A stretch of 47,386 nucleotides of DNA from Halorubrum saccharovorum DSM 1137 (GCF_000337915.1 NZ_AOJE01000070.1:298338-345723), one strand, 5' to 3'; shown: positions 14,176-27,637, numbered from the stretch's first letter. A program made the numbers and translations. Notes: generated by a model from the letters alone, not told the origin.

Positions 14176-14250
14176 GGGCGCTTAGCTCAGTCTGGATAGA
14201 GTGCTTGGCTTCGGACCAAGCTGTCGCGGGTTCAAATCCTGCAGCGCCCA
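14176..14250 (+). tRNA. tRNA-Arg (anticodon TCG)
   Basis: A 75-nt cloverleaf. The acceptor GGGCGCT pairs with AGCGCCC (discriminator A). The D stem is GCTC/GAGT with one wobble pair. The anticodon stem CTTGG/CCAAG closes the loop CTTCGGA, so the anticodon is TCG (reads CGA, Arg). The T stem GCGGG/CCTGC surrounds TTCAAAT. CCA is not encoded. TTAACA about 20 bp upstream may be the TATA element. The gene marks the left edge of the accessory block. Confidence 0.97.
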
Positions 14251-14644
14251 TTCGTTTTCATGATGGTTAGGATTCCACAGACAGCGGCGGGTTCGTTATA
14301 AAATACCTCCGTCGACCAAAGTAGATTTCATCAGTTTTCATGTTGCGGGTCGACGCCGCGATGCGGCTCACATCAATCGTGAATAACCGTGTTAAATTTC
14401 TGTGAGTCGAGCCGGTTCTCCGTGTTGGTTCGTGGCTGAGCGCGCTTTGGGCGGCTCGCTTCTTCTCGATTACGCGAAATACGGAGAATACGAACGCTAT
14501 TGAAGTCCCACTACAACAGGAGATATTTCTGACCGGTGTGTGGTCAGTACAGGGACGCAGATATCGACTACGCCCGGAACGAACCGAGCTGCACTCATTC
14601 AGTGTAACAGGTCTTTTAAACTATGTGGGAGGACCACCAACTGC
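14251..14644. other. 394-bp intergenic region after tRNA-Arg
   Basis: The composition is more AT-rich than the genes on its left. It carries the promoter of the creatininase-like gene: CTTTTAAAC at 14613-14621, about 25 bp before the ATG at 14645. A 34-codon frame from GTG 14402 to TGA 14503 looks faintly protein-like ('GGSLLLDYAKYGEYERY') and may be a gene scar, but nothing supports calling it. No repeat of the tRNA 3' end is visible here. Confidence 0.6.
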
Positions 14645-15403
14645 ATGCCTTCTCGCAGGTCAATACTCCTTGAGGAGATGGTATGGCCAGAAGTCGAATC
14701 GGCGCTCGAAAGCGGGATACGGACGGCGATCGTTTCCGTCGGCTCGATCGAACAGCACGGTCCCCACCTCCCGTTGAATATGGACACGCTGGACGGTGAC
14801 GAGCTCTCGCGGCGGATCGCGGAGAAATTGGGGGATGCTCTTGCTGCACCGACGATCCGGCCCGGCTGCTCGGGACATCACATGGAGTTCCCGGGCACGA
14901 TCACTATCCCGCCCGAAACACTGATGGATGTAATCCGGGCATACTGCCGGTCGCTCAATGACCATGGCTTCGAACATATCGTCTTAGTCCCGACGCACGG
15001 CGGGAATTTCGGCCCGGTCAAGACTGTTGCACCTGATGTCGCTCGGGACATCGAAGCCACAGTGATTCCCTTGGCTGACCTCGATGAGCATATGCAGTTA
15101 CTGAATGATGGCCTCAGCAAGGCCGGGATCAAATACGATCAAGACGTGATTCATGCCGGTGCAGCCGAGACGGCAGTGGTATTGGCGGTGAATGAGGATC
15201 TCGTAAGGGTTGAGAACATCGAGTCCGGCCCTGAGGGGGAGATATCTACCGCTCGCCTTCTGAGCGAAGGGTTCAAAGCCATCACTCAAAACGGTGTGCT
15301 TGGCGATCCGACTGAAGCAACCGCTGAAGCCGGCGAAACCATTATTCAGAACGTGGTTGATGCCTACGTTGATCACATCGAGAATGAACGCCGTTCTGTG
15401 TAG
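14645..15403 (+). CDS. creatininase-family amidohydrolase
   Basis: 252 residues. 'VGSIEQHGPHLPLNMDT' (about 24-40) supplies the Glu, His and Asp metal ligands typical of creatininase, MftE and FAPy deformylase (ArfB). 'RPGCSGHHMEFPGTITI' and 'LVPTHGGNFGPV' are the other conserved blocks, the latter with a metal-binding His. The family hydrolyses cyclic or linear amide bonds, using two metals. Which amide is cut here is unknown; creatinine itself is unlikely to be the only option. The start MPSRRSILL at 14645 is chosen over an in-frame start at 14540 because CTTTTAAAC lies ~25 bp upstream and a GGGAGGA tract 12 bp upstream. It faces the helicase operon tail to tail with 127 bp between. Confidence 0.88.
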   Translation: MPSRRSILLEEMVWPEVESALESGIRTAIVSVGSIEQHGPHLPLNMDTLDGDELSRRIAEKLGDALAAPTIRPGCSGHHMEFPGTITIPPETLMDVIRAYCRSLNDHGFEHIVLVPTHGGNFGPVKTVAPDVARDIEATVIPLADLDEHMQLLNDGLSKAGIKYDQDVIHAGAAETAVVLAVNEDLVRVENIESGPEGEISTARLLSEGFKAITQNGVLGDPTEATAEAGETIIQNVVDAYVDHIENERRSV

Positions 15404-15530
15404 ACACGCACCTCGACCGGGGTTGTCGGATTAATGCGCACTCTTCAACGACCAGCTTGTTTCATGCGGTATTGTGTCTGAAGAATACGAGCCCAACAGA
15501 GCCGTTTCATCGGATAGCCGATGATTTGAG

Positions 15531-18500
15531 CTACTCTTCGAACTCGGGATCGACGGTGAGTGAGTCCGGCGCGCAGGGCAGTTGGTTGTGCTGACACCAT
15601 TGGCAGTGCTCGCCAGCAGTGTAGCGACTGAACGAGAACTCGGCGATACTGTTCATCGACTCCGTCACGTCCCCTTCGACTGCTTCGAGTTCGTCCTCGT
15701 CAAACGCCCGCGATTCGACTTTTGGCCCGATCTCACCGACGTACGCGTATCCCGCCTGTGCGATCGGCTCATCGTACAGGTCACGACAGGCCAACAGATA
15801 GATCGGGAGTTGCGTATCGTCCGCTAGGTCGCGGTGGCGTTCGGTCGCCTTGTAGTCGATGACGACCAGTTCGCCGTCGGGTCTCCGATAGACGGCGTCA
15901 ATGTACCCGACGAGTTCGTGCCCACCGATATCGAGTTCGAACTCTCGCTCGGCGTCGACAATCTCGTACTCGGGAAGATCCAACTCGAAGTACCGATCGA
16001 TACACTCCTGGGCCGCCGGGAGCGCGTCCTCGGCGCGGCGCTGACCGGCGAGCCGCTCACAGATGTCGTACCACTCCGCACGCCGATCAGCGTCTTGTTT
16101 CGCGGCTTGCTCTGCCGTGTCGTGGAACAACAACCCGATCTCACGTTGTGACACACCGCTCCCGGTGGTGGTCGCGGACTCTTGGTAATCGGAGAACGCA
16201 TTGACCACGTAGTCGAGGTAGTGACTCCGCGAGCATTCCTCGTACGCCGCGAGTGAGGTGTAGCTGTGCGAGAGTGACGGTGGCGGCGTCGACGGACCCG
16301 TCAGCGACGCCACGTGGAGTGTTTTCTCCTCAGCTCTCGCTGAGAGGTCCCCGTTGAGAGAGGCCGTTGCGAGATCGACCACGCGGTCGCGTGCAGTCTC
16401 GACCGCGAGTTCCTCGCCGTCATGCGTCACGGTCCCGCCGACGTTCCCGATCGTCTCGCCGGCGAGTGTTGACGTCCAATCCGCTGTTGTATCCGGGAGA
16501 CACTCTTCGATGTCGGTCCAGAGTGGGAGATGGCCGCGTTCCGGTTGCCACGGAATTCGTGATGGCAGGATCTCACCCACTGCCTCCGAAACGGGGCGGT
16601 CGTCTTCGGCGTCGTCTCGGTCTTCGCTGCCACCCTGCAAAACGAGGACGTCCTCGGCGCGCGTGATTCCGACGTGGAACACGCGTCGAGTTTCCCGCGC
16701 GTCACGTTCGACGAAGTCCTCGGCGAACGCTGCGTCCGCGCCATCCGAGAGGCCGGTTTCGAGCGCATCGTATGTACGCGAACTTGGAGCCCATTCGTCG
16801 GCCGTGATCTGCGGAATGAGGACGACGGGGAAGTCGAGCCCCTTGCTTTTGTGGATGGTCATGACGTTGACCGCGTCGTCGGCGACATCCGGCTGGCTCG
16901 TGGGTGCGGTGCCACTCTCATCGAACAGGGAGTCGTAGTGTTCGAGCGAGTCGATGAACTCGGGAGTGAGCGGCGGTTGGACGGCGCTGTCTCCGTACTG
17001 TTCGATCACGTCCTCAAGCTGGGCGAGGTCCCGGCGCTCCTGCTCGCTGAGATACCACTCGATGTTCGTGAGCGCCGTGAGTTCGCGGTACAGGTGGCTG
17101 AGTGACGCCGAGTCCCGAAGATCGAGCAGTTCCGTGACGTGGTCACGGGCTTCCGCGATACGCTCGGGTTCCTCGAACTTGTCAAGCGGTGTGTCACGGA
17201 GCGTGTTCACGAGCGGGTCGTCGCCGTCGTTGAGTGTTCGAAGGTCGGCGTCGCACACTCGGTACCGCATCAGGAGGACACGGTTCCAACTCACCTCGTC
17301 TGCCGGCCGGGCGAGCGCTTTCAGGTACGCCGTGACGGTGCCAACGCCAACTGACTCCGTGGCTAAATCCCCCGCCACCTGGTACGGGATCCCGGCATCC
17401 TCGAACTCCTCGATGACGGGTGTGGCGTGGTCATTTTTCCGTACCAGTAACGCGATGTCCCCCGGATCATACGTCTCATCGAGATTCTCTGCGGCACCAC
17501 TCACCAGATTCTGTACGACGGTGCGAAGTTGTGCCGCACTATTTTCTTCCTCTTCGTCATCTGGGAGCTCGACGGTAGCGATGGTGTCCCCGTCGTACGC
17601 GGGTTCGTCAATTCGAGTGAGCGTCTTGTGTCGTTCTCGGTGGTCGAGTTTTGTGATCGCTTCGTTCGCTAAGTTCAAAATTGGCTGTCGGGAGCGGAAG
17701 TTCTCTTCGAGCGGCTCGTCACTGAGTGCTGTGAATGCTTGGTCAAGCTCGTCGGTGATGTTAGCGACGTGCGCACCGCGCCACTCGTAGATCGCCTGAT
17801 CGTCATCGCCAACGACGAACAGGTTGTCGTCGGTGACGAGTGACGTGACGAGGTCGAACTGAAGGCGATCGGTGTCCTGGAACTCGTCACAGAACACGTA
17901 GTCCCACCGCTCGGCGATTTCCTCACCGACCGGCGAATCCATCAGCGCAGCAGTCTCGACGACCAGTCCGTCGAAGTCAATGCGGTTCCGCTCGTCGAGT
18001 TCGCGTTCGTATGCTGCATACCCCGCTGTCAAGTCCCGGGCAGTGAGACAGTCGGAGACGAACGAATCGAGATGGTCGGTGAGTTCGAGATTGAGCTCAC
18101 CAGGAATCCCCGTCGGTGCACCGCTCGCGTACCCGCCGAGCAAGTATTTCGGGAGTTTGTGCGCGTTGTCTGGAAGGCCTCGGGCACCCGCCTCGTGTGC
18201 TTCGAACGCGGCTTCGAGCGCGTCAACCAGATCGATGAGCCGAGTGAGGAAATCGCGTGCGCTCTCCTCGATACCTTGCGTGCCAAGCGCATCGCGTTCA
18301 GCGACTAACTCTGACCGGACAGCCGGGAGCGAGTCAAGAACACTCCCGATCGAGCGGCCACCGAGATGATCGCCCGCAATATTTTCGATGCGGTCAGGAA
18401 GATCGGCGAGCTCGTACACGCGGTCAGTCGGGCCGAGGAATGCGTCGATGTCATCGGGTGTAATCCCGCTGCGTTTCATCGATCCGATGAAGTTCAGTAG

Positions 18501-18989
18501 CTTCGAGGCAGCGCCTGACGCGTACCCGTCACCGCCGTACACGTTGGGTTTCACCGACCGGTACTCGATTTCATCGAGGACATCGATGACGATGGCGTAC
18601 TTCTCGGCGTCCGTGGCGACCTCGAAATCAGGGTCGATCCCGGCTTCGTACGCGTAGTCGGTGAGAATCTCGTTACAGATGGAGTGGTACGTGTACGCGT
18701 CGATGTCGTATCCGGCGGTCCCGAGTTTCGCGTTGAGTTTCTCCCGCATCGAGTTCGCCGCGTTGTTCGTGAACGTCAACGCGAGAATCCGGTCGGGGGA
18801 GATGTCTTCCTCGTCGATGAGGTGCTCGATTTTCCGCACCATCGTGAACGTCTTCCCCGTCCCAGCACCGGCGAGGACACGCATCGGGTACGCGTCTGAA
18901 TCGATGATCGTCTCCTGCTGGGGCTCCGGTGAGATATCCGCCTCCGGAACCGGGAACCACGACGGGTACTCGTCAGGGTCGTCGCTCAT
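15531..18989 (-). CDS. UvrD/AddA-type helicase fused to a C-terminal Fe-S PD-(D/E)XK nuclease
   Basis: 1152 residues. Superfamily 1A helicase motifs: Walker A GAGTGKT 41-47, 'LTFTNNAA' (Ia) 71-78, Walker B DEFQD 368-372, 'GDDDQAIYEWRGA' (III) 394-406, 'ENFRS' (IV) 429-433, 'TIHKSKGLDF' (V) 711-720 and 'VGITRAED' (VI) 773-780. All key residues are intact, so it should be an active 3'-5' translocase. The C-terminal ~240 residues form a RecB-like nuclease: His956 ('GLLFH'), Asp1031 ('GYIDAV'), and Asp1045-x-Lys1047 ('VIDYKA'). Cys919 plus Cys1129, 1132 and 1139 make the split cluster motif of AddB/Cas4 iron-sulfur nucleases, which bacterial AddA lacks. Its start overlaps the stop of the nuclease gene by 4 bp (ATGA), so the subunits are co-translated. 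The likely role is DNA end resection or destruction of foreign DNA. Confidence 0.93.
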   Translation of the reverse strand: MSDDPDEYPSWFPVPEADISPEPQQETIIDSDAYPMRVLAGAGTGKTFTMVRKIEHLIDEEDISPDRILALTFTNNAANSMREKLNAKLGTAGYDIDAYTYHSICNEILTDYAYEAGIDPDFEVATDAEKYAIVIDVLDEIEYRSVKPNVYGGDGYASGAASKLLNFIGSMKRSGITPDDIDAFLGPTDRVYELADLPDRIENIAGDHLGGRSIGSVLDSLPAVRSELVAERDALGTQGIEESARDFLTRLIDLVDALEAAFEAHEAGARGLPDNAHKLPKYLLGGYASGAPTGIPGELNLELTDHLDSFVSDCLTARDLTAGYAAYERELDERNRIDFDGLVVETAALMDSPVGEEIAERWDYVFCDEFQDTDRLQFDLVTSLVTDDNLFVVGDDDQAIYEWRGAHVANITDELDQAFTALSDEPLEENFRSRQPILNLANEAITKLDHRERHKTLTRIDEPAYDGDTIATVELPDDEEEENSAAQLRTVVQNLVSGAAENLDETYDPGDIALLVRKNDHATPVIEEFEDAGIPYQVAGDLATESVGVGTVTAYLKALARPADEVSWNRVLLMRYRVCDADLRTLNDGDDPLVNTLRDTPLDKFEEPERIAEARDHVTELLDLRDSASLSHLYRELTALTNIEWYLSEQERRDLAQLEDVIEQYGDSAVQPPLTPEFIDSLEHYDSLFDESGTAPTSQPDVADDAVNVMTIHKSKGLDFPVVLIPQITADEWAPSSRTYDALETGLSDGADAAFAEDFVERDARETRRVFHVGITRAEDVLVLQGGSEDRDDAEDDRPVSEAVGEILPSRIPWQPERGHLPLWTDIEECLPDTTADWTSTLAGETIGNVGGTVTHDGEELAVETARDRVVDLATASLNGDLSARAEEKTLHVASLTGPSTPPPSLSHSYTSLAAYEECSRSHYLDYVVNAFSDYQESATTTGSGVSQREIGLLFHDTAEQAAKQDADRRAEWYDICERLAGQRRAEDALPAAQECIDRYFELDLPEYEIVDAEREFELDIGGHELVGYIDAVYRRPDGELVVIDYKATERHRDLADDTQLPIYLLACRDLYDEPIAQAGYAYVGEIGPKVESRAFDEDELEAVEGDVTESMNSIAEFSFSRYTAGEHCQWCQHNQLPCAPDSLTVDPEFEE

Positions 18990-19888
18990 CGCCGCACCTC
19001 CGGTGCCAGCCGGTCAGCGCACATCTCTCTGTAGTCACAGTCCGGACACGCCTCCTCGGTGATCAGCTCGAACGGTTCCGGCTCGAACGCGTCGTTCGTG
19101 ATGCCGTCGTGAGCGTCTCGAATGAGCGCCCAGATCGTGTCTCGGTGTTCGTCGTAAATCTCCGTGGTTTCGCGTGGATACCCGCGTGCAGACACCTCGT
19201 ACCCGTCCGGAGTGCTCTCGAACGACGTGCTATTGAGGAGCCCGTAGAAGCTGAACCGGACCTCCATCCCGTCTTCGTAGAACGGTTCGTTCTTCACGCC
19301 CTCGACGTACGTCGCCGTCTGAAACGCGTTCCGTACCCGCTTCGGTTCGTGCGCCTCGCCGTCGAGATGCTCACCGAGGCGCTCGGCCGTCCCCGACGAG
19401 AGGGCACCGCGGGTGTTCCGCTTGTAGTCGAACACGTGGAGCCCGTCGTCCGTTCGGATGACGTTGTCTGCTTTCCCGTGAAGCTCCCGCCCGTCCACTT
19501 CGCACTCGACCCAGCACTCCGTGACGAGTGACCGGCGGGCGTGCTCGATCCCGTCACCGCCGTCCGGATCGAAGAACGACTCGATGGCAGCCCGGTTCTC
19601 AACGCGTTGGTACTCTCGGTGTGCAGTCGATTCGTAGTCCTCGGGCGTGCTGTGCTCGTCCCACTTCGCATCGAAGACCCGCATCGCTCGGTCTGAGATG
19701 ACTTCCGGATCGTCGTCGCGGTCGGTCGCGTCACACACGTCCTCGATCGTCTCGTGGTAGATCGTTCCCTGATTGAGGTAGAGTTCGGTCCGATCCGGGG
19801 CGTTCACGTCCTGTACGTACCGGTAGTCGTACAGACGGGGACAGGTAGCGTACGTCGCCAGCCGTGACGGGGAGAGCGCTCTGCTCAT
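18986..19888 (-). CDS. Cas4/AddB-like PD-(D/E)XK nuclease with four-Cys iron-sulfur motif
   Basis: 300 residues, a free-standing RecB-family nuclease. 'SRLATYATCPRLYDYRY' holds Cys16, 'GTIYHETIED' the family His45, 'GKAD' Asp141, and 'VFDYKRNT' Asp154-x-Lys156; Cys281, 284 and 290 (CxxCx5C) complete the iron-sulfur staple. It matches the nuclease module that ends bacterial AddB, but here it is a separate gene placed directly after the AddB-like gene. The start at 19888 (MSRALSPSRL) overlaps the upstream stop by 4 bp; a longer frame reading back to 20224 is only a shadow of the upstream gene. Metal-dependent cleavage of single-stranded DNA ends is inferred from the family. Cas4 proper is unlikely because no cas genes or arrays are nearby. 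Confidence 0.88.
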   Translation of the reverse strand: MSRALSPSRLATYATCPRLYDYRYVQDVNAPDRTELYLNQGTIYHETIEDVCDATDRDDDPEVISDRAMRVFDAKWDEHSTPEDYESTAHREYQRVENRAAIESFFDPDGGDGIEHARRSLVTECWVECEVDGRELHGKADNVIRTDDGLHVFDYKRNTRGALSSGTAERLGEHLDGEAHEPKRVRNAFQTATYVEGVKNEPFYEDGMEVRFSFYGLLNSTSFESTPDGYEVSARGYPRETTEIYDEHRDTIWALIRDAHDGITNDAFEPEPFELITEEACPDCDYREMCADRLAPEVRR

Positions 19889-21942
19889 CGACGGACCTCC
19901 CCGCTGGCAAGTTCGACGCGCGCACGCAACGCCCGGCGCAGTTCGTCGCCGCGGGAGCCGCTCCGATCGAGGAGCTCCTGAATCTCGCCGAGGTCCGCTT
20001 CGACGTCGTCGAGCGACACCGTCACGTCCTGACTGTTCGCGCGACGGACCTCCGCGAGCGCGTCGTCGACCCGCGACAACAGGTACGTCTCCGCCGCCTG
20101 CTCGTTCGTAATCTGCGGGTCGTCGGCGTCGGTCACCCACGGGAGTGCTTCGTACGCCGCCGTGAGGAACCGCGAGGCCTGCGCGCGCTCTTCGAGCGCC
20201 GTGTCCTCGAACTCGTAGAGACAACAGTACAGGCGCTCCGACGCCGCGTCCGCACCGACAGCCAGTCGTCGCCGCGCGTGCTCCGTGTGATACCGCGCGA
20301 ACGGGCGACTCGACGCCGTCGACGTCGTCGGGAACGTCGCATCCACGTCCGCCGCATCGATCTCCGTGACGCCCGGGAAATCCGGCATCGACGCGACGCG
20401 CTCCGTAGGGAACAACCGCGTCATGGACGCGTCACCCGGATACTCGCCGTCGACGAGGTTCACGAGAAACACCGCCCGGAACGACTCGTTTTTGATGGCC
20501 TGCAAATGATCGACGCGCACGCCACCATCGAGGTCCGTGGCGCTCGTCTGGTTCTGCTGTGGCGCGTACTCGTGAGCGCGTTCCAACATCTCGTCGAAGG
20601 ACGCCCACGTCGCCTCCGCGAACTCGGTTGCTTCGAGAAACTCCGCCATCCGGAAGGCTCGGCGGACGTTCCCGAACTGCGACCGCGCGTCGAGCGGCGA
20701 GGCCCGCTCCGCGACGCGTTCTTTCAACCCGGAAGCTGTCGCCCACCACCGAACCGCATCCTCGATCGACTCCATGCCCCGCATCCGTTCCGCGCGACTA
20801 CCGTCGATATCTGGTCCGTGGTCGAGGGCGTCATCATCGTCGTCGGCCGCGAGTCGGCGGACGACAGCGAGCAACTCCCTGATCGCCGGATCATCACCGA
20901 ACCCGGTCACAGTCGTCGATTCCGTCGGAATCCCGGCGCGTTCGAACGCTTCGATGACGTCCGTGACGCTCTCTCCGCTTCCCTTCGTGGCGACCGCGAC
21001 ATCGTCGTACTGCCAGTCGGGCTCTTCGACGAGCGACTCGATCTCGTTCGCGACCGCGTTGAGCTGCTCGTCACTCGAGTCTGTAGCCAAGACAGAGACG
21101 GCCCCGGACTCCGGATCGGCTTCCACTCGCTCGTCGGCGAAGTACGCCGCCGTGGCCGCCGGTCGATTCGACGGCGTCGTCGGGGGCTCGCGTCGAGACT
21201 CGTCGAACGAGACGTACTCCGTCACCGGTCCCGTCTCGACCCACGTTCGACGCACACTCGCGTTCTCCTCGGCGACGCACACGAGCTCGCAGTCCGCCGT
21301 GAGCGCATCGAGGTACGCACGGTCGAGCGGGAAGAACTCCTCGAACTCGACCGCAAGCACCGCCTCGAAATCGACGACGTCACCGCGGTCGTCGCCGGTG
21401 AGCACGTCACGCGCCTCGGAGATGAGCTGTCCGCGCTCCATGTGGTCGTGCTCGGCGAGCCACTCGTGGAACGCGTCGAGCGCGGCCGAGATCTCTCGGA
21501 GTTCCGGTGTCTCGTCCGGCGTGACGGTCTGCCAGGAGAGCGTGTCGATCACTTGGTCCACATCCTCGATGAACGACGGCTGCTCGGACGCTCGTCGCAG
21601 GTACTCCGTCTCCCACTCGTAGTCCGCGAGGAACCGATGGAGGAGTTCGCGCCGTAGCGCGTCGGACAGAATCACGCGGTCATCAGTCTGATTGAGGACG
21701 TCAGTCGCGTGGACGACGAGCGACGTCACGTACGGCGTCGCCGCCCCCGACAGCTCCTCACCCAGCGCGTCACGGAACGTGTCCGCGCTCGTGGGTGCCC
21801 CCGTGATGACGAGTATCTCCTCGGAATCATACTCGTCAAGGTAGTCCGCGTAGATGTCGCCTGCCGCTGCTTCGACGTTCCGAGTACCGAACGGTGCTGT
21901 CACCAGTGTACCATCGAAGGTGCGGTGGCTCGACTCACTCAT
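19885..21942 (-). CDS. AddB/RecC-like inactivated helicase subunit
   Basis: 685 residues. The overall layout follows the helicase-like part of AddB. The N-terminal strand that should carry the P-loop reads 'LVTAPFGTRNVEAAAGD', with no GxGKT, so ATP binding is lost as in RecC. A late motif, 'VDHLQAIKNESFRAVFLVNL' followed by 'DGEYPGDAS', corresponds to helicase motif V of AddB (...KGLEF..VFLLGL..G.FP). There is no C-terminal nuclease domain; that function is in the next gene. It probably forms a scaffold or recognition subunit, holding DNA ends or scanning for a signal sequence, as RecC/AddB do with Chi. ATG 21942 is preferred over TTG 21948. It is the first gene of the three-gene unit; an inverted repeat lies ~65 bp upstream. 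Confidence 0.75.
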   Translation of the reverse strand: MSESSHRTFDGTLVTAPFGTRNVEAAAGDIYADYLDEYDSEEILVITGAPTSADTFRDALGEELSGAATPYVTSLVVHATDVLNQTDDRVILSDALRRELLHRFLADYEWETEYLRRASEQPSFIEDVDQVIDTLSWQTVTPDETPELREISAALDAFHEWLAEHDHMERGQLISEARDVLTGDDRGDVVDFEAVLAVEFEEFFPLDRAYLDALTADCELVCVAEENASVRRTWVETGPVTEYVSFDESRREPPTTPSNRPAATAAYFADERVEADPESGAVSVLATDSSDEQLNAVANEIESLVEEPDWQYDDVAVATKGSGESVTDVIEAFERAGIPTESTTVTGFGDDPAIRELLAVVRRLAADDDDDALDHGPDIDGSRAERMRGMESIEDAVRWWATASGLKERVAERASPLDARSQFGNVRRAFRMAEFLEATEFAEATWASFDEMLERAHEYAPQQNQTSATDLDGGVRVDHLQAIKNESFRAVFLVNLVDGEYPGDASMTRLFPTERVASMPDFPGVTEIDAADVDATFPTTSTASSRPFARYHTEHARRRLAVGADAASERLYCCLYEFEDTALEERAQASRFLTAAYEALPWVTDADDPQITNEQAAETYLLSRVDDALAEVRRANSQDVTVSLDDVEADLGEIQELLDRSGSRGDELRRALRARVELASGEVRR

Positions 21943-22003
21943 TGCCAATCCTCAGACAAAGAAGACAGAACGGTCACATTCGGCATACGACACGATTCCA
22001 AGA

Positions 22004-22016
22004 CCTATCGGATAGG
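22004..22016. promoter_or_regulatory. inverted repeat upstream of the AddAB-like operon
   Basis: CCTATCGGATAGG is a perfect 6-bp inverted repeat around one base. It lies 61 bp before the ATG at 21942, in the 183-bp leader of the operon. The position suits an operator at or above the core promoter. No regulator gene next to it is recognisable. Confidence 0.35.
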
Positions 22017-22125
22017 CTTTCTCCTACTCACCAAAACCCATCCGCCGTATCCGTCGTCTCCCATCGTCAACCGCGGCGACCGAGCGTGTTTTTCGCCACG
22101 AAAGCCGCACCGTACTCAGAGGCGG

Positions 22126-22395
22126 TCACTCGCCCGGTTTTGTCCCAGCCCGCAGGTTCTCCCGGTACTCACACCATGCTCGGTACATCTCTGCCCGTTC
22201 CGCTTCCGTCATCGCCCCGTGTTCGCCTTCGTCGTAGAACGGGAGTTCCTCCTTCTCGGGTACCGCCATCACCTGCTTGAGCGGATAGATATCCTCGTAG
22301 TAGTTCTCTAACACCCAGTCTTCGCCGTGTTCATCGACGGCTTCCTGAATGTGCGGGGCGGCCTCCGGATACTCCGCGGCGAGCGTGTCGGTCAT
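22126..22395 (-). CDS. hypothetical acidic small protein
   Basis: 89 residues with an acidic, helical character: 'YPEAAPHIQEAVDEHGEDWV' then 'YYEDIYPLKQVMAVPEKEEL' and a C-terminal 'AEMYRAWCEYREN'. I do not recognise the family; no catalytic or metal motif and no membrane segment is visible. The start MTDTLAAEYP at 22395 is favoured over 22533, since the longer form adds arginine-rich shadow sequence. It has the same orientation as the helicase operon, 183 bp upstream of it, and is 55 bp downstream of another unknown gene. It could belong to the same accessory unit, but the gap leaves room for a separate promoter. Confidence 0.7.
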   Translation of the reverse strand: MTDTLAAEYPEAAPHIQEAVDEHGEDWVLENYYEDIYPLKQVMAVPEKEELPFYDEGEHGAMTEAERAEMYRAWCEYRENLRAGTKPGE

Positions 22396-22450
22396 GGTCG
22401 TCCTGCTTCGAGGTGGGTTGGGGTGCTCCGATACGCGGACGGATCGGCGG

Positions 22451-22807
22451 TCAGGCGTCGGCGAACTCGGCGAGCGAGTGGTCCGAACCGCTCCCGTTCC
22501 ACGTGCCGATTTGGACGAGCTCGAACGTCTCAAGCGAGGCGTCGATCGCGTCTGCGATTCGGGCCCGGATCGCAGACGGAAGGCTTTCCACGGGGATCGC
22601 CGTGAGCGCGTGCTGGGTGAGTCGGTAACTCGATGCGAAGTTCGTCGGGGCGACGACGATCACGCTCGCCCCGTCGACGTCGTCGAGCGCGAGTTGGGCA
22701 TCCCGATACTGGTGGACGATCGCATCCAGCTCCTCGACCGGGAAGAGGCAGTCAGCAGCACCGTATTCGAGACTCGCCCCCGCCGACACGAAATGTCCTT
22801 TAGGCAT
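22451..22807 (-). CDS. hypothetical protein, palindromic promoter
   Basis: 118 residues, soluble. It contains 'VEELDAIVHQYRDAQLALDD' (helical), a hydrophobic strand 'ASVIVVAP', and a C-terminal 'FELVQIGTWNGSGSDHSL'. No known domain is recognised. The codon pattern is haloarchaeal and the start has a strong AT-rich promoter region with overlapping palindromes ending ~10 bp upstream of the ATG. It may head a small minus-strand cluster with the 89-residue protein, upstream of the AddAB-like genes. Confidence 0.65.
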   Translation of the reverse strand: MPKGHFVSAGASLEYGAADCLFPVEELDAIVHQYRDAQLALDDVDGASVIVVAPTNFASSYRLTQHALTAIPVESLPSAIRARIADAIDASLETFELVQIGTWNGSGSDHSLAEFADA

Positions 22808-22816
22808 AACTATATC

Positions 22817-22838
22817 AACATATATGTTCTATGAACAT
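22817..22838. promoter_or_regulatory. overlapping palindromes in the promoter of the 118-residue protein
   Basis: AACATATATGTT (22817-22828) is a perfect 12-bp palindrome and overlaps ATGTTCTATGAACAT (22824-22838), with 6-bp arms and a 3-bp centre. They fill the TATA/start region of the minus-strand gene beginning at 22807, so a protein bound there would block transcription. Confidence 0.5.
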
Positions 22839-23023
22839 TAAATTTGTGGTGAATGTGGCGACGATCGACGATCGGATAGCGACAGAGTACGGTTTCGACG
22901 GGATCACGAGGTGTCTCACACCCCGGGGTGGTTCACCGGACCAGGGGTCTTTGAAAAATACGAGCAGCGATTCGGATGAGATGCGGTTCGTCCGAAGGCG
23001 CGCCCTAACACTTGATCCAGGCG

Positions 23024-23239
23024 TTACCGATCTCTGAACTCTACCGTGTAGCCGTTGTTCCGAAGCGCTTCAACGAGCTCGTCTCCACGCTCGATTTTGA
23101 ACTCGTGGAACGAGTTGGACGGAGTGTCTGTCGAATACAGCTCTGAGTCAATATTGTCTGGTATCTCGTTCTGATGGGTATCCTCTTGGACAATAACCGG
23201 TTGACTGGGAACGTGGTTGGAGCTGCTGTCTTCTGTCAT
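23024..23239 (-). CDS. hypothetical short protein
   Basis: 71 residues from ATG 23239: a polar, low-complexity N-terminal half ('TEDSSSNHVPSQPVIVQED') and a better ordered C-terminal end ('FHEFKIERGDELVEALRNNG'), which could be one helix-strand unit. No family is recognised. A longer in-frame start at 23404 exists but its extra sequence is unlike a protein. It lies alone between the unknown gene cluster and the amidohydrolase. It may be a real small gene or the 3' remnant of a larger one. Confidence 0.4.
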   Translation of the reverse strand: MTEDSSSNHVPSQPVIVQEDTHQNEIPDNIDSELYSTDTPSNSFHEFKIERGDELVEALRNNGYTVEFRDR

Positions 23240-23478
23240 TCGAACATCTCTCGTTACAGCTATTCGGCTATGTGAATTCCGATTCCAGTTCCTGTCGAGC
23301 TGGCTATTCGATGCGGTCGCATGCGTCGAAACGGTACCGTGAGTTTCGCCCCGTGACGGACAGCCACTCCCCTTCTCGCGATCGGTTCCGGGGAACTCGT
23401 TCAAACAGCCCCTCGTACCGTCCCGATGGAGACGGCCAACACCAATCCTGATGAGCGCTCAGTAAGAAGTCGAACCCG

Positions 23479-24945
23479 ATGGCCGCTGACATCGCGATCC
23501 ACGATGCCGTCGTTCTCACGGTCGACGACAGGAATCGGCTCTACGAACGGGGTACGGTGCTCGTCGAGGATAGCCACATCACGGAGGTGCGACAGTCTCG
23601 GGACGTCGATGCGGACATCGCGGCCGACCGCGTCATCGACGGCGAAGGGAAGCTCGTGATGCCGGGGCTGGTCAACGCGCACACGCACCTCGAACTGACG
23701 CCGTTGCTCGGCGCGTTCAGCGACCTCGACCTGCTGGAGATGATGGGGAGTATAACCGCTATCTACGGCCGGATCGCGGACGGCGAGTTCGACTACCTCA
23801 CCGAGGCGGGGTACGAACTCGCCGCGCTCAACTTCCTCGCGGGCGGCGTCACCACCGTCAACTCGCAAGACGTCCGTCCGAGCGCGGGTGCGAAGACGTT
23901 CGGCGAGGCGGGCCTCCGCGGGTTCTTCGGCCCGGCGCTCTCCGACCTCTTCTGGGACGTCCCCGTCGACGAGCAGTTCGCCCGCGCCCGCGAGTTCATC
24001 GACGAGTACCACGATACCTACGACGGCCGCATCCGCGCGACGATCAACCCCCACGACGACTGGTCGTGTACGCGCGAGCTGTGGGAGCGCACCGCTGACC
24101 TCGCCGCGGAGCACCCCGACTTGCTCGTTCACACCCACCTGCTCGAACTCGAGGAGAGCAACACGATGGCGCGCTCGAACGGTGCGAACGACTCGCTCGA
24201 CCTGCTCGACGACGTCGGCCTCCTCGACGATCGGCTAGTGGCCGCGCACTTCCGTATCGCGGACGACGAGGACATCCGGCGGACTGCCGAGGCGGACGCG
24301 TCGGTCGCACACTGTCCGTCGATCTTCTCGTACTGGAACACGGGCAGCGACGTGCAGTGGACGCCGGTGCCGGAACTCCGAGCCGCCGGTGTCGACGTCG
24401 GCCTCGGCATCGACGACCACTACTGGCACGACTCGTACAACATGTTCGGCGAGGCCCGACAGGCCAGACTCGCGGCCAACCTCAAGCGGTCGACCGGGCA
24501 GTACCACTCGATGGAGTTGGTACGGATGCTCACTGTCGAGGGGGCGAAGGCGCTCGGCGTCGGCGACGAGATCGGCAGTCTCGAACCCGGCAAGCGCGCC
24601 GACATCATCCTGCTCAACGTGGACAAGCCGAAGTTCACGCCGCTGACCAACGTCCCGGCGCAGGTCGCCAACAACGCGACGTCCGCCGACGTGGAGGCGG
24701 TCATCGTCGACGGAGACGTGCTGATGGAGGACGGGGAGGTGAAGGCGATGGACGCCGACGCGGTGCGCGACCGCGTCGAGTCTGCGGTCGCCCGCTTCGA
24801 GTCGGAGACCGACTGGGAACTCGGCGTCGGGGAGAGCGAGCCGCCGAGCGAGAGAGATGTCGTCCGCGACCTGCCGAAGCGCGGCCCCGCCCAGTTGCTC
24901 GGCCGACTCGCGTTTCAGTCGGCCAGGGACCGGTTCCCGTTCTGA
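23479..24945 (+). CDS. amidohydrolase-superfamily deaminase/chlorohydrolase-like protein
   Basis: 488 residues. The composite N-terminal beta sandwich ('VEDSHITEVRQS') is followed by 'MPGLVNAHTHLELTPL' (the HxH metal pair near residue 68). 'LLVHTHLLE' supplies the third His, 'VAAHFRI' the fourth, and 'LGIDDHYWHDSYNMFGEAR' the metal Asp. 'IGSLEPGKRADIILLN' is the C-terminal signature of the ATZ/TRZ, S-adenosylhomocysteine and guanine deaminase group. It most likely deaminates or dechlorinates a heterocycle or nucleoside using one metal; the substrate is not clear. A short tail of ~60 residues past the sandwich is additional. It stands alone on the plus strand, ~200 bp before the FAD monooxygenase, so possibly a loose pair for breakdown of an aromatic or heterocyclic compound. 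Confidence 0.85.
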   Translation: MAADIAIHDAVVLTVDDRNRLYERGTVLVEDSHITEVRQSRDVDADIAADRVIDGEGKLVMPGLVNAHTHLELTPLLGAFSDLDLLEMMGSITAIYGRIADGEFDYLTEAGYELAALNFLAGGVTTVNSQDVRPSAGAKTFGEAGLRGFFGPALSDLFWDVPVDEQFARAREFIDEYHDTYDGRIRATINPHDDWSCTRELWERTADLAAEHPDLLVHTHLLELEESNTMARSNGANDSLDLLDDVGLLDDRLVAAHFRIADDEDIRRTAEADASVAHCPSIFSYWNTGSDVQWTPVPELRAAGVDVGLGIDDHYWHDSYNMFGEARQARLAANLKRSTGQYHSMELVRMLTVEGAKALGVGDEIGSLEPGKRADIILLNVDKPKFTPLTNVPAQVANNATSADVEAVIVDGDVLMEDGEVKAMDADAVRDRVESAVARFESETDWELGVGESEPPSERDVVRDLPKRGPAQLLGRLAFQSARDRFPF

Positions 24946-25149
24946 ACCCGATGACAGCGTCTGACTCGCGTTCGAGTGCGGCAAGCACCGTGTCACGGGC
25001 GGGGGTTCGAACTGGCTCACCGCCATCCGCCGGTCGCCCCCAGAGGCGAGCGGCGCGTCGACGGGGACCCGGACACGATCGATTCGTACCTTAAAGAGCC
25101 GTATTCAACCGGCAGGGATGTCTCCACTGCCGAGGCCGTATCGCCGTCC

Positions 25150-26355
25150 ATGGAACACATCGGCGAGACGAGTGAGATCGCGATTATCGGCGGCGGCATC
25201 TGCGGTCTCACGACCGCGATCGCCCTCGAACGACGAGGGGCGTCGCCGACGGTGTACGAAGCGGCGTCTGAATACCGGCCTGTGGGTGCCGGAATCCTCC
25301 TCCAGACGAACGCGCTATTGGCACTTGACCGCTTGGGAATCGCGGACCGGGTACGGTCCGCGGGGATGGCGCTCGACGACGCTCGGATCCTCTCCCCGAG
25401 CGGGCGAGTTCTCCAACGATTCGACCTCGAAGGCGTCGAACGAACGCGCTACGACTACGGCTACGTGGCGATCCAGCGTGGGGATCTCCAGCAGGTCCTC
25501 CTCGATGAACTCGGCGGAGCCGTCCGGACGGGCAAGGCCTGTGCGGCCGTCGAGGACCCGGAGTCCCCGACCGTTCGGTTCGAGGACGGGATGCGCATCA
25601 GCCCTGACATCGTCATCGGCGCGGATGGCATCGACTCGAACGTCCGCGGCGCGATCGCGCCAGAGGCCGAAACGCGGTCGTTTGATGCCGCAGTCCATCG
25701 GTCCGTGGTACCCTGCGAGTTGCCCGAACGGTGTCGATCAACGGGAGTGGAGGTCTGGGGACACGGCACTTACACCGGTGGTGCTCCCGTTGGTTCGGAT
25801 CGGTTTTACTGGTTCGCGACGGTTCCGAACCGGTTGGAATCCGCGACTACGTACCACCGGCCCCGCGCGGAGTGGGTGCGCGAACACTACCGCGGCTTCC
25901 CGGAGCCGATTCCCACAGTGATCGAATCGCTCGATTCCGACGACATCATCACGACTGGCCTCGCCGACGTGCCACCGCTCGACCGATGGTCTCGCGGATC
26001 GGTCGCCCTCGCCGGCGACGCGGCCCACGGGATGTTACCCTTCGCCGGGCAAGGCGCAGCGCAGGCGATCGAGGACGCTGTCGCGTTAGCTGCCGCACTC
26101 ACAACGAGCGAAGATCCGCCGACAGCGTTCGACGCGTACGAGCGCGAGCGAAAGCGACGTGCCGATCAGATACGTACCGAATCCCGTTGGCTCGGTGCTC
26201 TCGGGACCGCCCAGTCGAGTCTCGCATGCCGGGCTCGAAACGCCGGAGCCACCCTGCTCCCCGGTGGAGTCGTTCGTCGCTTCCGACAGCGTCGAATACT
26301 CGGCGCCTCTCTCGCGGAGGAAATCACCGCCGATCCGGAGAAGCGTCCTGGATAG
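25150..26355 (+). CDS. FAD-dependent monooxygenase (group A flavoprotein hydroxylase)
   Basis: 401 residues. 'IAIIGGGICGLTTAIALERR' (9-28) is the FAD ADP-binding GxGxxG fold, 'VIGADGIDSNVR' is the DG motif that binds FAD and NAD(P)H, and 'ALAGDAAHGMLPFAGQGAAQ' is the GD motif holding the ribityl chain. 'PVGAGILLQTNALLALDRLG' is typical of salicylate- and 3-hydroxybenzoate-hydroxylase-like enzymes. It would insert one oxygen into an aromatic or polyene substrate; which one is unknown. The start at 25150 (MEHIGETS) precedes the FAD motif by a normal 8 residues; the longer in-frame start at 24976 adds a non-family leader. A CTTAAAG element ~50 bp upstream suggests its own promoter. Confidence 0.9.
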   Translation: MEHIGETSEIAIIGGGICGLTTAIALERRGASPTVYEAASEYRPVGAGILLQTNALLALDRLGIADRVRSAGMALDDARILSPSGRVLQRFDLEGVERTRYDYGYVAIQRGDLQQVLLDELGGAVRTGKACAAVEDPESPTVRFEDGMRISPDIVIGADGIDSNVRGAIAPEAETRSFDAAVHRSVVPCELPERCRSTGVEVWGHGTYTGGAPVGSDRFYWFATVPNRLESATTYHRPRAEWVREHYRGFPEPIPTVIESLDSDDIITTGLADVPPLDRWSRGSVALAGDAAHGMLPFAGQGAAQAIEDAVALAAALTTSEDPPTAFDAYERERKRRADQIRTESRWLGALGTAQSSLACRARNAGATLLPGGVVRRFRQRRILGASLAEEITADPEKRPG

Positions 26356-26460
26356 GGTACTCTGTTTCACGGGGGCCCGCGTCATCCTCGACGGGCGCCA
26401 CGCGCATCACGGGGTACGGCCCCTCTGAGGTGATCGGCACTCAGAATTCGGTGGCGGCAG

Positions 26461-26476
26461 AACCCTTCTGAGGGTT
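26461..26476. terminator. hairpin downstream of the radical SAM gene
   Basis: AACCCTTCTGAGGGTT forms a 6-bp stem with a 4-base loop, about 60 bp past the stop of the minus-strand gene and between it and the converging monooxygenase. No U-tract follows, so terminator function is only a guess. Confidence 0.3.
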
Positions 26477-26533
26477 CGACGGGGCGATCGAACCGCATAT
26501 CCAACTGCCACGCGTCCGAGGCTCTGAGAGGCG

Positions 26534-27637
26534 TCAGTCCGCGGCGTCGGTCGTCCCCGCCGGTCCCTCGGAACCGGCGCCGAGCGTCGCCGGCAACTCG
26601 CCGTCGTACCCCTCCGGAACGTACGGACAGAGCGGGTCGCTCTCCAGGGGGTCCCCGGTCGTCGCGAACGCCCGCGAGCGGCTCCCCCCGCACACCCGTC
26701 GGAACTCGCAGGCGCCGCACTTCCCTTTCAGCCTGTCCGGTTCGCGGAGCGACTCGAAGAGGTCTGAGTGCCGGTAGATGTCGACGATCGATCGGTCGCG
26801 GACGTTGCCGGCGGACTCCGGGAGGAACCCGGACGGGTACGCCTCGCCGGTGTGGCTCACGAACGCGAACCCGCGGCCGGCGGTGATTCCGCCGCGCCGT
26901 CGGGCCGCCCCCTCGTCGCCGTCCGACTGAATACCGACCCGGCGGTAGAAGGGCGCCTCGGTCGTCTTGACGCCGAACGGCTCCGACTCGGCGACGCCGT
27001 GGAGCCACTCCATCACGGCCTCGGCCCGCTCCGGCGAGATGGGATCGAGGATCCGGCCCCGACCCACCGGAACGAGGAAGAACACGCTCCAGAGGACGGC
27101 GCCGAGGTCTCGCACGCGGTCCCGGATCGCGGGGAGCTCGTCGACCGTCTCCGCGCAGACGGTCGTGTTGATCTGCAGCGGGAGCGCCGCGTCGGACGCC
27201 GCCTCCGCCGCCTCCAGCGTGCTCTCGAAGCTCTCCTCGCCCCGGAACCGGTCGTGGATATCCCGCGTCGCGCCGTCGAGGCTGAGCGCCATCCGCCGGA
27301 CCCCGGCGTCGGCGAGGGCCTCGACCCGGTCGGGCGTCAGCGATCGCGTCCCGCTGGGGGTGATCGTCATGCGGAGCCCCCGATCGTCGCCGTACGAGAC
27401 CAGCTCCAGGAGGTCGTCTCTGGCGAGCGGATCGCCGCCGGAGAGCACGACGAGCTGGCCGTCCCCGAACGCCGCCGCGTCGTCGAGGAGGCGCTTCCCC
27501 TCCGCGGTCGTCAGCTCGTCGGGGTGCCGCGCCGGCTTCGCGTCGGCGCGACAGTGACGGCAGGCGAGCCCGCACGCCTGCGTCACCTCCCAAATGAGAA
27601 CCAGCGGCCGCCGGTCCGTGTCGAGGTCGTCGAACAT
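26534..27637 (-). CDS. radical SAM/SPASM protein (NirJ/AhbC/AhbD-like)
   Basis: 367 residues. 'TQACGLACRHCRADAKPARH' (19-38) carries the CxxxCxxC motif for the SAM-bound [4Fe-4S] cluster (Cys22, 26, 29), 'VVLSGGDPLARDDL' is the GGxP-like element, and 'MALSLDGATRDIHDRFRG' is the strand of the partial TIM barrel. The C-terminal 'KCGACEFRRVCGGSRSRA' plus 'DPLCPY' is a SPASM-type auxiliary cluster site. The arrangement resembles the heme-biosynthesis radical SAM proteins AhbC, AhbD and NirJ. A role in alternative heme or heme d1 modification is possible, but no other heme gene lies nearby. The start at 27637 (MFDDLDTDRRP) is favoured over 27664. It is divergent from the stress-protein gene. Confidence 0.88.
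   Translation of the reverse strand: MFDDLDTDRRPLVLIWEVTQACGLACRHCRADAKPARHPDELTTAEGKRLLDDAAAFGDGQLVVLSGGDPLARDDLLELVSYGDDRGLRMTITPSGTRSLTPDRVEALADAGVRRMALSLDGATRDIHDRFRGEESFESTLEAAEAASDAALPLQINTTVCAETVDELPAIRDRVRDLGAVLWSVFFLVPVGRGRILDPISPERAEAVMEWLHGVAESEPFGVKTTEAPFYRRVGIQSDGDEGAARRRGGITAGRGFAFVSHTGEAYPSGFLPESAGNVRDRSIVDIYRHSDLFESLREPDRLKGKCGACEFRRVCGGSRSRAFATTGDPLESDPLCPYVPEGYDGELPATLGAGSEGPAGTTDAAD

Follow-up and report, generated by a model that had tools for sequence, protein, structure and literature searches.

Three adjacent genes of Halorubrum saccharovorum DSM 1137 probably encode a three-polypeptide ATP-dependent helicase-nuclease of the AddAB/AdnAB class, acting at DNA ends. In the form described here it would be directed against invading DNA, and in Natrialbaceae it would serve repair. 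The genes, hereafter the trio, are carried by a stretch of 47,386 nucleotides that was analysed as a whole and is called the window (Table 1).

Table 1. Trio genes, their junctions and the surrounding locus (positions counted from the first nucleotide of the window)
Feature	Position	Strand	Product	Remarks
AddB-like gene	19885..21942	minus	685 aa	dead SF1 helicase fold (predicted), without Walker A
Free Fe-S PD-(D/E)XK nuclease gene (Cas4-like)	18986..19888	minus	300 aa	
UvrD/PcrA-type SF1A helicase with C-terminal Fe-S PD-(D/E)XK nuclease	15531..18989	minus	1152 aa	Pfam, NCBIfam
ATGA stop-start overlap, AddB-like/nuclease genes	19885..19888	minus		sequence; overlap conserved in relatives
ATGA stop-start overlap, nuclease/helicase-nuclease genes	18986..18989	minus		ORF coordinates; overlap conserved in relatives
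tRNA-Arg(TCG)	14176..14250	plus		Halorubrum synteny stops at the tRNA 3' end
Variable block holding the trio	14252..26533			replaced by ~970 bp in locus L200, by other cargo in other Halorubrum

A previous examination, the sequence-only reading, had described three minus-strand genes joined by ATGA overlaps, a layout borne out by the ORF coordinates, the sequence and a comparison of 77 loci. Both junctions in the window are 4-nt ATGA overlaps, as read directly in the sequence. With the window included, the AddB/Cas4 junction overlaps in 77/77 loci and the Cas4/UvrD junction in 76/77, mostly by 4 or 8 nt, so the overlaps of the window are not due to chance. Pfam domains agree with the proposed Cas4-like free nuclease and UvrD helicase carrying its own nuclease: the large protein matches UvrD helicase, UvrD_C and PDDEXK_1, and the small one PDDEXK_1. 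The AddB-like protein gives only sub-threshold matches to UvrD_C and ADDB_N. PADLOC returned generic UvrD (GajB) and weak Cas4 matches for the trio. Gabija (GajAB) was considered and rejected, as the GajB models match as generic UvrD and the neighbouring genes of the window are not GajA-like. A perfect 6-bp inverted repeat, CCTATC-C-GATAGG (22004-22016), lies ~60 bp ahead of the AddB-like gene and is a possible operator.

Foldseek searches with the AlphaFold model of the AddB-like protein (pLDDT 85, pTM 0.85) ranked AddB chains at the top (4cei_B, E 2.6e-24), and 606-611 residues align to AddB 2-767. This is the structural match on which the idea of a single complex had been made to depend. 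Since the VIA Z-score is higher for plain UvrD (Z 32 over 506 residues) than for AddB (Z 26-27 over ~606), it is the Foldseek rank, the length of the alignment and the gene context that support the assignment to AddB. A family profile of the AddB-like relatives also matches AddB by sequence (E 1.8e-8); the protein scores far under the curated AddB cut-offs. No Walker A motif is present in any of the homologues (0/127), and the AddB-like protein is therefore unlikely to be a motor. With a predicted AddB fold and no Walker A, its earlier description as an inactive helicase holds.

The model of the middle nuclease (pLDDT 91.6) matches best the nuclease domains of AdnA (792-1039, Z 16.6) and AddB (786-1139, Z 15.9). 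In the window, the catalytic residues H45, D141, D154, K156, Q190 and Y194 are all present, as are cysteines C16, C281, C284 and C290. A CRISPR Cas4 was rejected for this protein: the cas4 model gives 34 bits for a cut-off of 65, and Cas4 structures score Z ~10 compared to 16 for AdnA/AddB. Structures of Argonaute-associated Cas4 are available (9IAB, 9IAC). The gene border in the trio falls between the helicase-like and nuclease modules of AddB. From the modelled folds, the first two proteins, which together span AddB without a gap, are predicted to be an AddB/AdnA subunit split at a domain border. The Fe-S nuclease is a gene separate from the AddB helicase domain in every locus reaching that gene, and no fused AddB-like/nuclease gene was seen among the long ORFs of haloarchaea.

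The motor of the window scores higher with the curated pcrA model (256 bits) than with recB (145) or addA (126, for a cut-off of 708). Against solved structures, the order is PcrA (306), AdnB (221), AddA (212) and RecB (135). A helicase-domain tree groups all the sampled trio motors in one clade (99/100) and separates them from archaeal AddA (100/100), from RecB, UvrD and Rep of E. coli and from the UvrD-nuclease fusions; for the UvrD-Cas4 fusions (PMC5704561) this separation is to be read with just four, long-branched representatives in the tree. From this clade and from the model scores, the trio motor is not AddA by descent. The UvrD/AddA motor proposed earlier is thus a UvrD helicase with a nuclease, and it resembles PcrA/UvrD and AdnB more than AddA. 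Likewise, of the idea of AddAB modules split over three genes, the AddAB/AdnAB-like architecture stands, and the trio is not a broken-up AddAB. K46, D368, E369, D1031, D1045, K1047 and four cysteines are invariant across all relatives covering those positions; the motor reading frame is broken in two relatives (L064, L131). Judging from these motifs, the UvrD-like subunit is the predicted sole motor of the trio, which may work like AddAB or AdnAB although its motor has another descent.

Relatives were compared using gene neighbourhoods together with 80 loci from genome contigs, all haloarchaeal. As to whether the three genes are normally found apart, a point raised by the sequence-only reading, the neighbourhood survey found all three kept, in the same order, at 124 of 127 distinct loci. 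The incomplete loci are a plasmid remnant (L071) and two contig ends (L070, L171). Order and overlap hold at protein identities down to ~30%. The AddB-like gene occurs in 138 of the 392 genomes of the window's order, and 16 plasmid records, all haloarchaeal, carry trio relatives. Strong matches to the trio were obtained in haloarchaea only, with weak matches outside, where we observed either an AddB that is not split (1018-1052 aa) with an AddA-type motor after it, or UvrD-nuclease fusions. We rejected an origin as a viral recombinase, since viral contigs (pattern-limited scan) and phage records contained no relative. The remnant L071, on a Halorubrum lacusprofundi plasmid (NC_012030.1), is a degenerate clade B system, with a lone 311-aa AddB-like fragment beside a divergent AAA/DUF4143 ATPase gene. 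We found no description of the trio in the open-access literature, an absence that is weak evidence.

The trio exists in two forms. Every checked catalytic residue of the middle nuclease is kept in 39/39 clade A, 12/12 clade B and 10 clade C sequences. Loss of the DxK motif marks 63 clade C sequences; each of H45, K156, Q190 and Y194 is found in only 10/75 clade C sequences, and the Fe-S cysteines are retained in nearly all. All checked residues of the motor and of its nuclease are kept throughout the clades. The dead-nuclease set falls on one side of one branch of the trio tree, and in a second tree the active and dead-nuclease forms are separate, well supported clades. The AddB-like gene is present in 109/125 genomes of a family inferred to be Natrialbaceae, and in 30/148 genomes of the window's family, where it is patchy. 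It had been taken for one unusual gain, which does not fit a trio that is near-core in Natrialbaceae and patchy elsewhere. The contexts differ too: the window form, with two intact nucleases, sits among defence genes, and the Natrialbaceae trio, whose middle nuclease has lost its catalytic residues, has a constant, non-defence context. Defence-type neighbours were counted at 32/39 clade A, 9/13 clade B, 3/10 active clade C and 0/63 dead clade C loci.

The tRNA-Arg(TCG), a drop in GC (55-67% over 14-24 kb, 65-73% on the flanks) and the break of synteny confirm that the trio lies in an accessory block beside a tRNA. As synteny stops at the tRNA and homology with L200 resumes at 26534 after ~970 bp, we consider this ~12.3 kb block as variable. 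The same tRNA-Arg adjoins a trio in Halorubrum aquaticum; in Halorubrum sp. 48-1-W (L117) and Halostella pelagica its neighbour is the cassette complete with Argonaute. A search for a repeat of the tRNA 3' end, as expected from the attachment site of a simple tRNA-integrated element, found none. Nor did the window contain remnants of Argonaute or PLD, and no Piwi domain is present in the genome. The window copy, which occupies a variable tRNA-Arg hotspot, is thus a version lacking Argonaute, and because its genome has no Argonaute, the link to Argonaute is indirect, coming from related loci. Pairwise dN/dS of the window trio genes with relatives is 0.09-0.17, suggesting a benefit from the trio even in the absence of Argonaute. 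Between the tRNA-Arg and the trio, on the strand opposite to the trio, lies a creatininase-family gene (14678-15403); Mrr-type or HEAT-repeat genes take this position in relatives.

Clustering of neighbour genes and family searches revealed a gene string that recurs in clade A. It starts with a divergent AAA/DUF4143 ATPase, followed by a long Argonaute (PADLOC pAgo, 1081 bits) and a PLD nuclease; next comes the trio, and after it ATPase_2/DUF234, Mrr-type or methyltransferase genes. The Argonaute-PLD pair is directly upstream of the trio in 14/39 clade A loci, the close relatives of the window, with 54-64 nt between Argonaute and PLD and, in 12/14, 5 nt between PLD and trio. Across the 392-genome sample, where 37 genomes have a Piwi domain, 11 Piwi genes precede, by their coordinates, a clade A trio at a distance of ~1-2.5 kb; the chance expectation is far under one. 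The pair corresponds to APAP, and of the genes nearby, the authors of that system mention only one encoding a helicase (PMC11442185). In bacteria, Argonautes have known links with RecBCD and AddAB (PMC10164581, PMC10269773). With this precedent, cooperation is plausible at loci that join the genes, and the shared string suggests that Argonaute and trio cooperate there against invading DNA. Clade B has no Argonaute. It carries a convergent gene for a 375-aa protein (L060:3479-4606 and five further megaplasmid loci) with an Argonaute N-terminus-like OB domain and a weak match to DNA polymerase B exonuclease, adjoined by a PLD gene in five loci. Proteins of ~1600 aa with sacsin-like N-termini are encoded next to or near six clade A trios (L034, L055, L129, L130, L131, L133), mostly without Argonaute, and are a possible alternative partner.

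A further-reaching proposal, which we put forward tentatively as possible rather than probable, is that the haloarchaeal trio is a dedicated part of an Argonaute immune operon, where it would unwind and fragment invader DNA, supply guides and finish targets. It would then be a wired-in version of the bacterial RecBCD/AddAB-Argonaute cooperation, and a sister form would have turned into a resident repair enzyme with the loss of one nuclease. Somewhat less likely still, the trio might be a general recombination machine in every carrier, resecting chromosomal breaks for RadA, with defence neighbours that are coincidental, as accessory genes sharing hotspots. The near-core Natrialbaceae trio in its constant surroundings fits with this, as do the repair role of AddAB and AdnAB and the metabolic genes that accompany the window copy in its tRNA hotspot. 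However, the trio is patchy in the window's family, defence-type neighbours mark clade A and are absent from the resident form (32/39 versus 0/63), and a PLD gene ending 5 nt before the trio in 12/14 loci is tighter than shared hotspots would give.

That the mobile form is instead an obligate part of Argonaute immunity, the window copy being a left-over on its way to loss, is improbable: despite the five-gene string of 14 loci and the full cassette at the same tRNA-Arg in the congener L117, at least 23 clade A trios without adjacent Argonaute retain all checked residues, and the low dN/dS of the window genes points the same way. Mapped on the trio tree, Argonaute switches between present and absent about ten times, indicating that the two modules join and part. 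Least probable is that the three proteins merely share an operon and act separately, the helicase-nuclease and the Cas4-like nuclease each as a solo enzyme and the first protein as an inactive UvrD-like protein unrelated to them. UvrD-nuclease fusions do stand alone in other archaea (L207, L208; PMC5704561), but the order and overlap of the trio are invariable even among distant relatives and its first two proteins cover AddB gap-free.

In the preferred reading, a three-polypeptide DNA-end helicase-nuclease, the UvrD-like subunit would draw in the duplex end as sole motor and carry one nuclease. The AddB-like dead helicase would grip the duplex end, split it, and either route or scan one of the strands. 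The free Fe-S nuclease, replacing the C-terminal nuclease of AddB/AdnA, would cut the other strand, so that one or two Fe-S nucleases would cut, depending on the form. The mobile form, with two intact nucleases, would most likely act on linear invader DNA by degrading or resecting it, alone in the case of the window. In related loci the trio could act with Argonaute and PLD, either degrading Argonaute-cut DNA or making strands or fragments usable as guides. The Natrialbaceae form, with one intact nuclease, would most likely serve break repair.

In the usual description of archaea, breaks are resected by Mre11-Rad50 and HerA-NurA. A distinct AddAB-like machine that is near-core in one archaeal family would be a second resection route, open to genetic tests. 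The two natural forms, one with two live nucleases and one with a live and a dead nuclease that keeps Fe-S cysteines, would independently replay the difference between AddAB and RecBCD. An operon shared with Argonaute makes the origin of guides and the finishing of targets testable on one gene string in model haloarchaea. As a separate observation, a NurA-family protein scores above the Pfam cut-off in the genome of the window (L220, G000:C16:5973-6962) and likewise in the Haloferax volcanii control; a review gives HerA and NurA as absent from H. volcanii (PMC7776575).

The trio can be compared with several known systems. Archaea are often said to lack AddAB, although two-gene AddAB, with an unsplit AddB and an AddA-type motor, was seen in some non-haloarchaeal genomes of the phylum (L210-L214, L216). 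Like the trio, it has an AddB-like protein and a motor-nuclease in one operon; unlike the trio, its nuclease is fused to AddB and its motor best matches addA models. The UvrD-Cas4 fusions, found partly in defence contexts, share a UvrD helicase fused to a pfam12705/PDDEXK_1 nuclease, but an AddB-like or free Cas4-like partner is not described for them (Hudaiberdiev et al. 2017, PMC5704561). APAP has the Argonaute-PLD pair found ahead of the trio in 14 relatives, whereas the window has neither gene. As in the trio, RecC of RecBCD is a dead helicase, and with its dead nuclease fold the partner subunit resembles the Natrialbaceae form; the trio operon differs by lacking a RecD-like second motor, and structural scores are lower (Z ~19). 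Mycobacterial AdnAB (6PPJ, 9NP6) provides the top match of the free nuclease, the AdnA nuclease domain, and AdnB is the best-scoring two-subunit motor for the trio motor, but AdnAB consists of two polypeptides each with helicase and nuclease, whereas the trio has three genes, its first subunit being in two pieces. AddAB of Firmicutes (3U44, 4CEI) shares the dead helicase subunit, the Fe-S nuclease domain, the SF1A motor with its own nuclease and the domain order along the operon. In the trio, by contrast, the AddB part is two genes, the motor scores with PcrA/UvrD models rather than AddA, and the nuclease of the motor also has four Fe-S-type cysteines.
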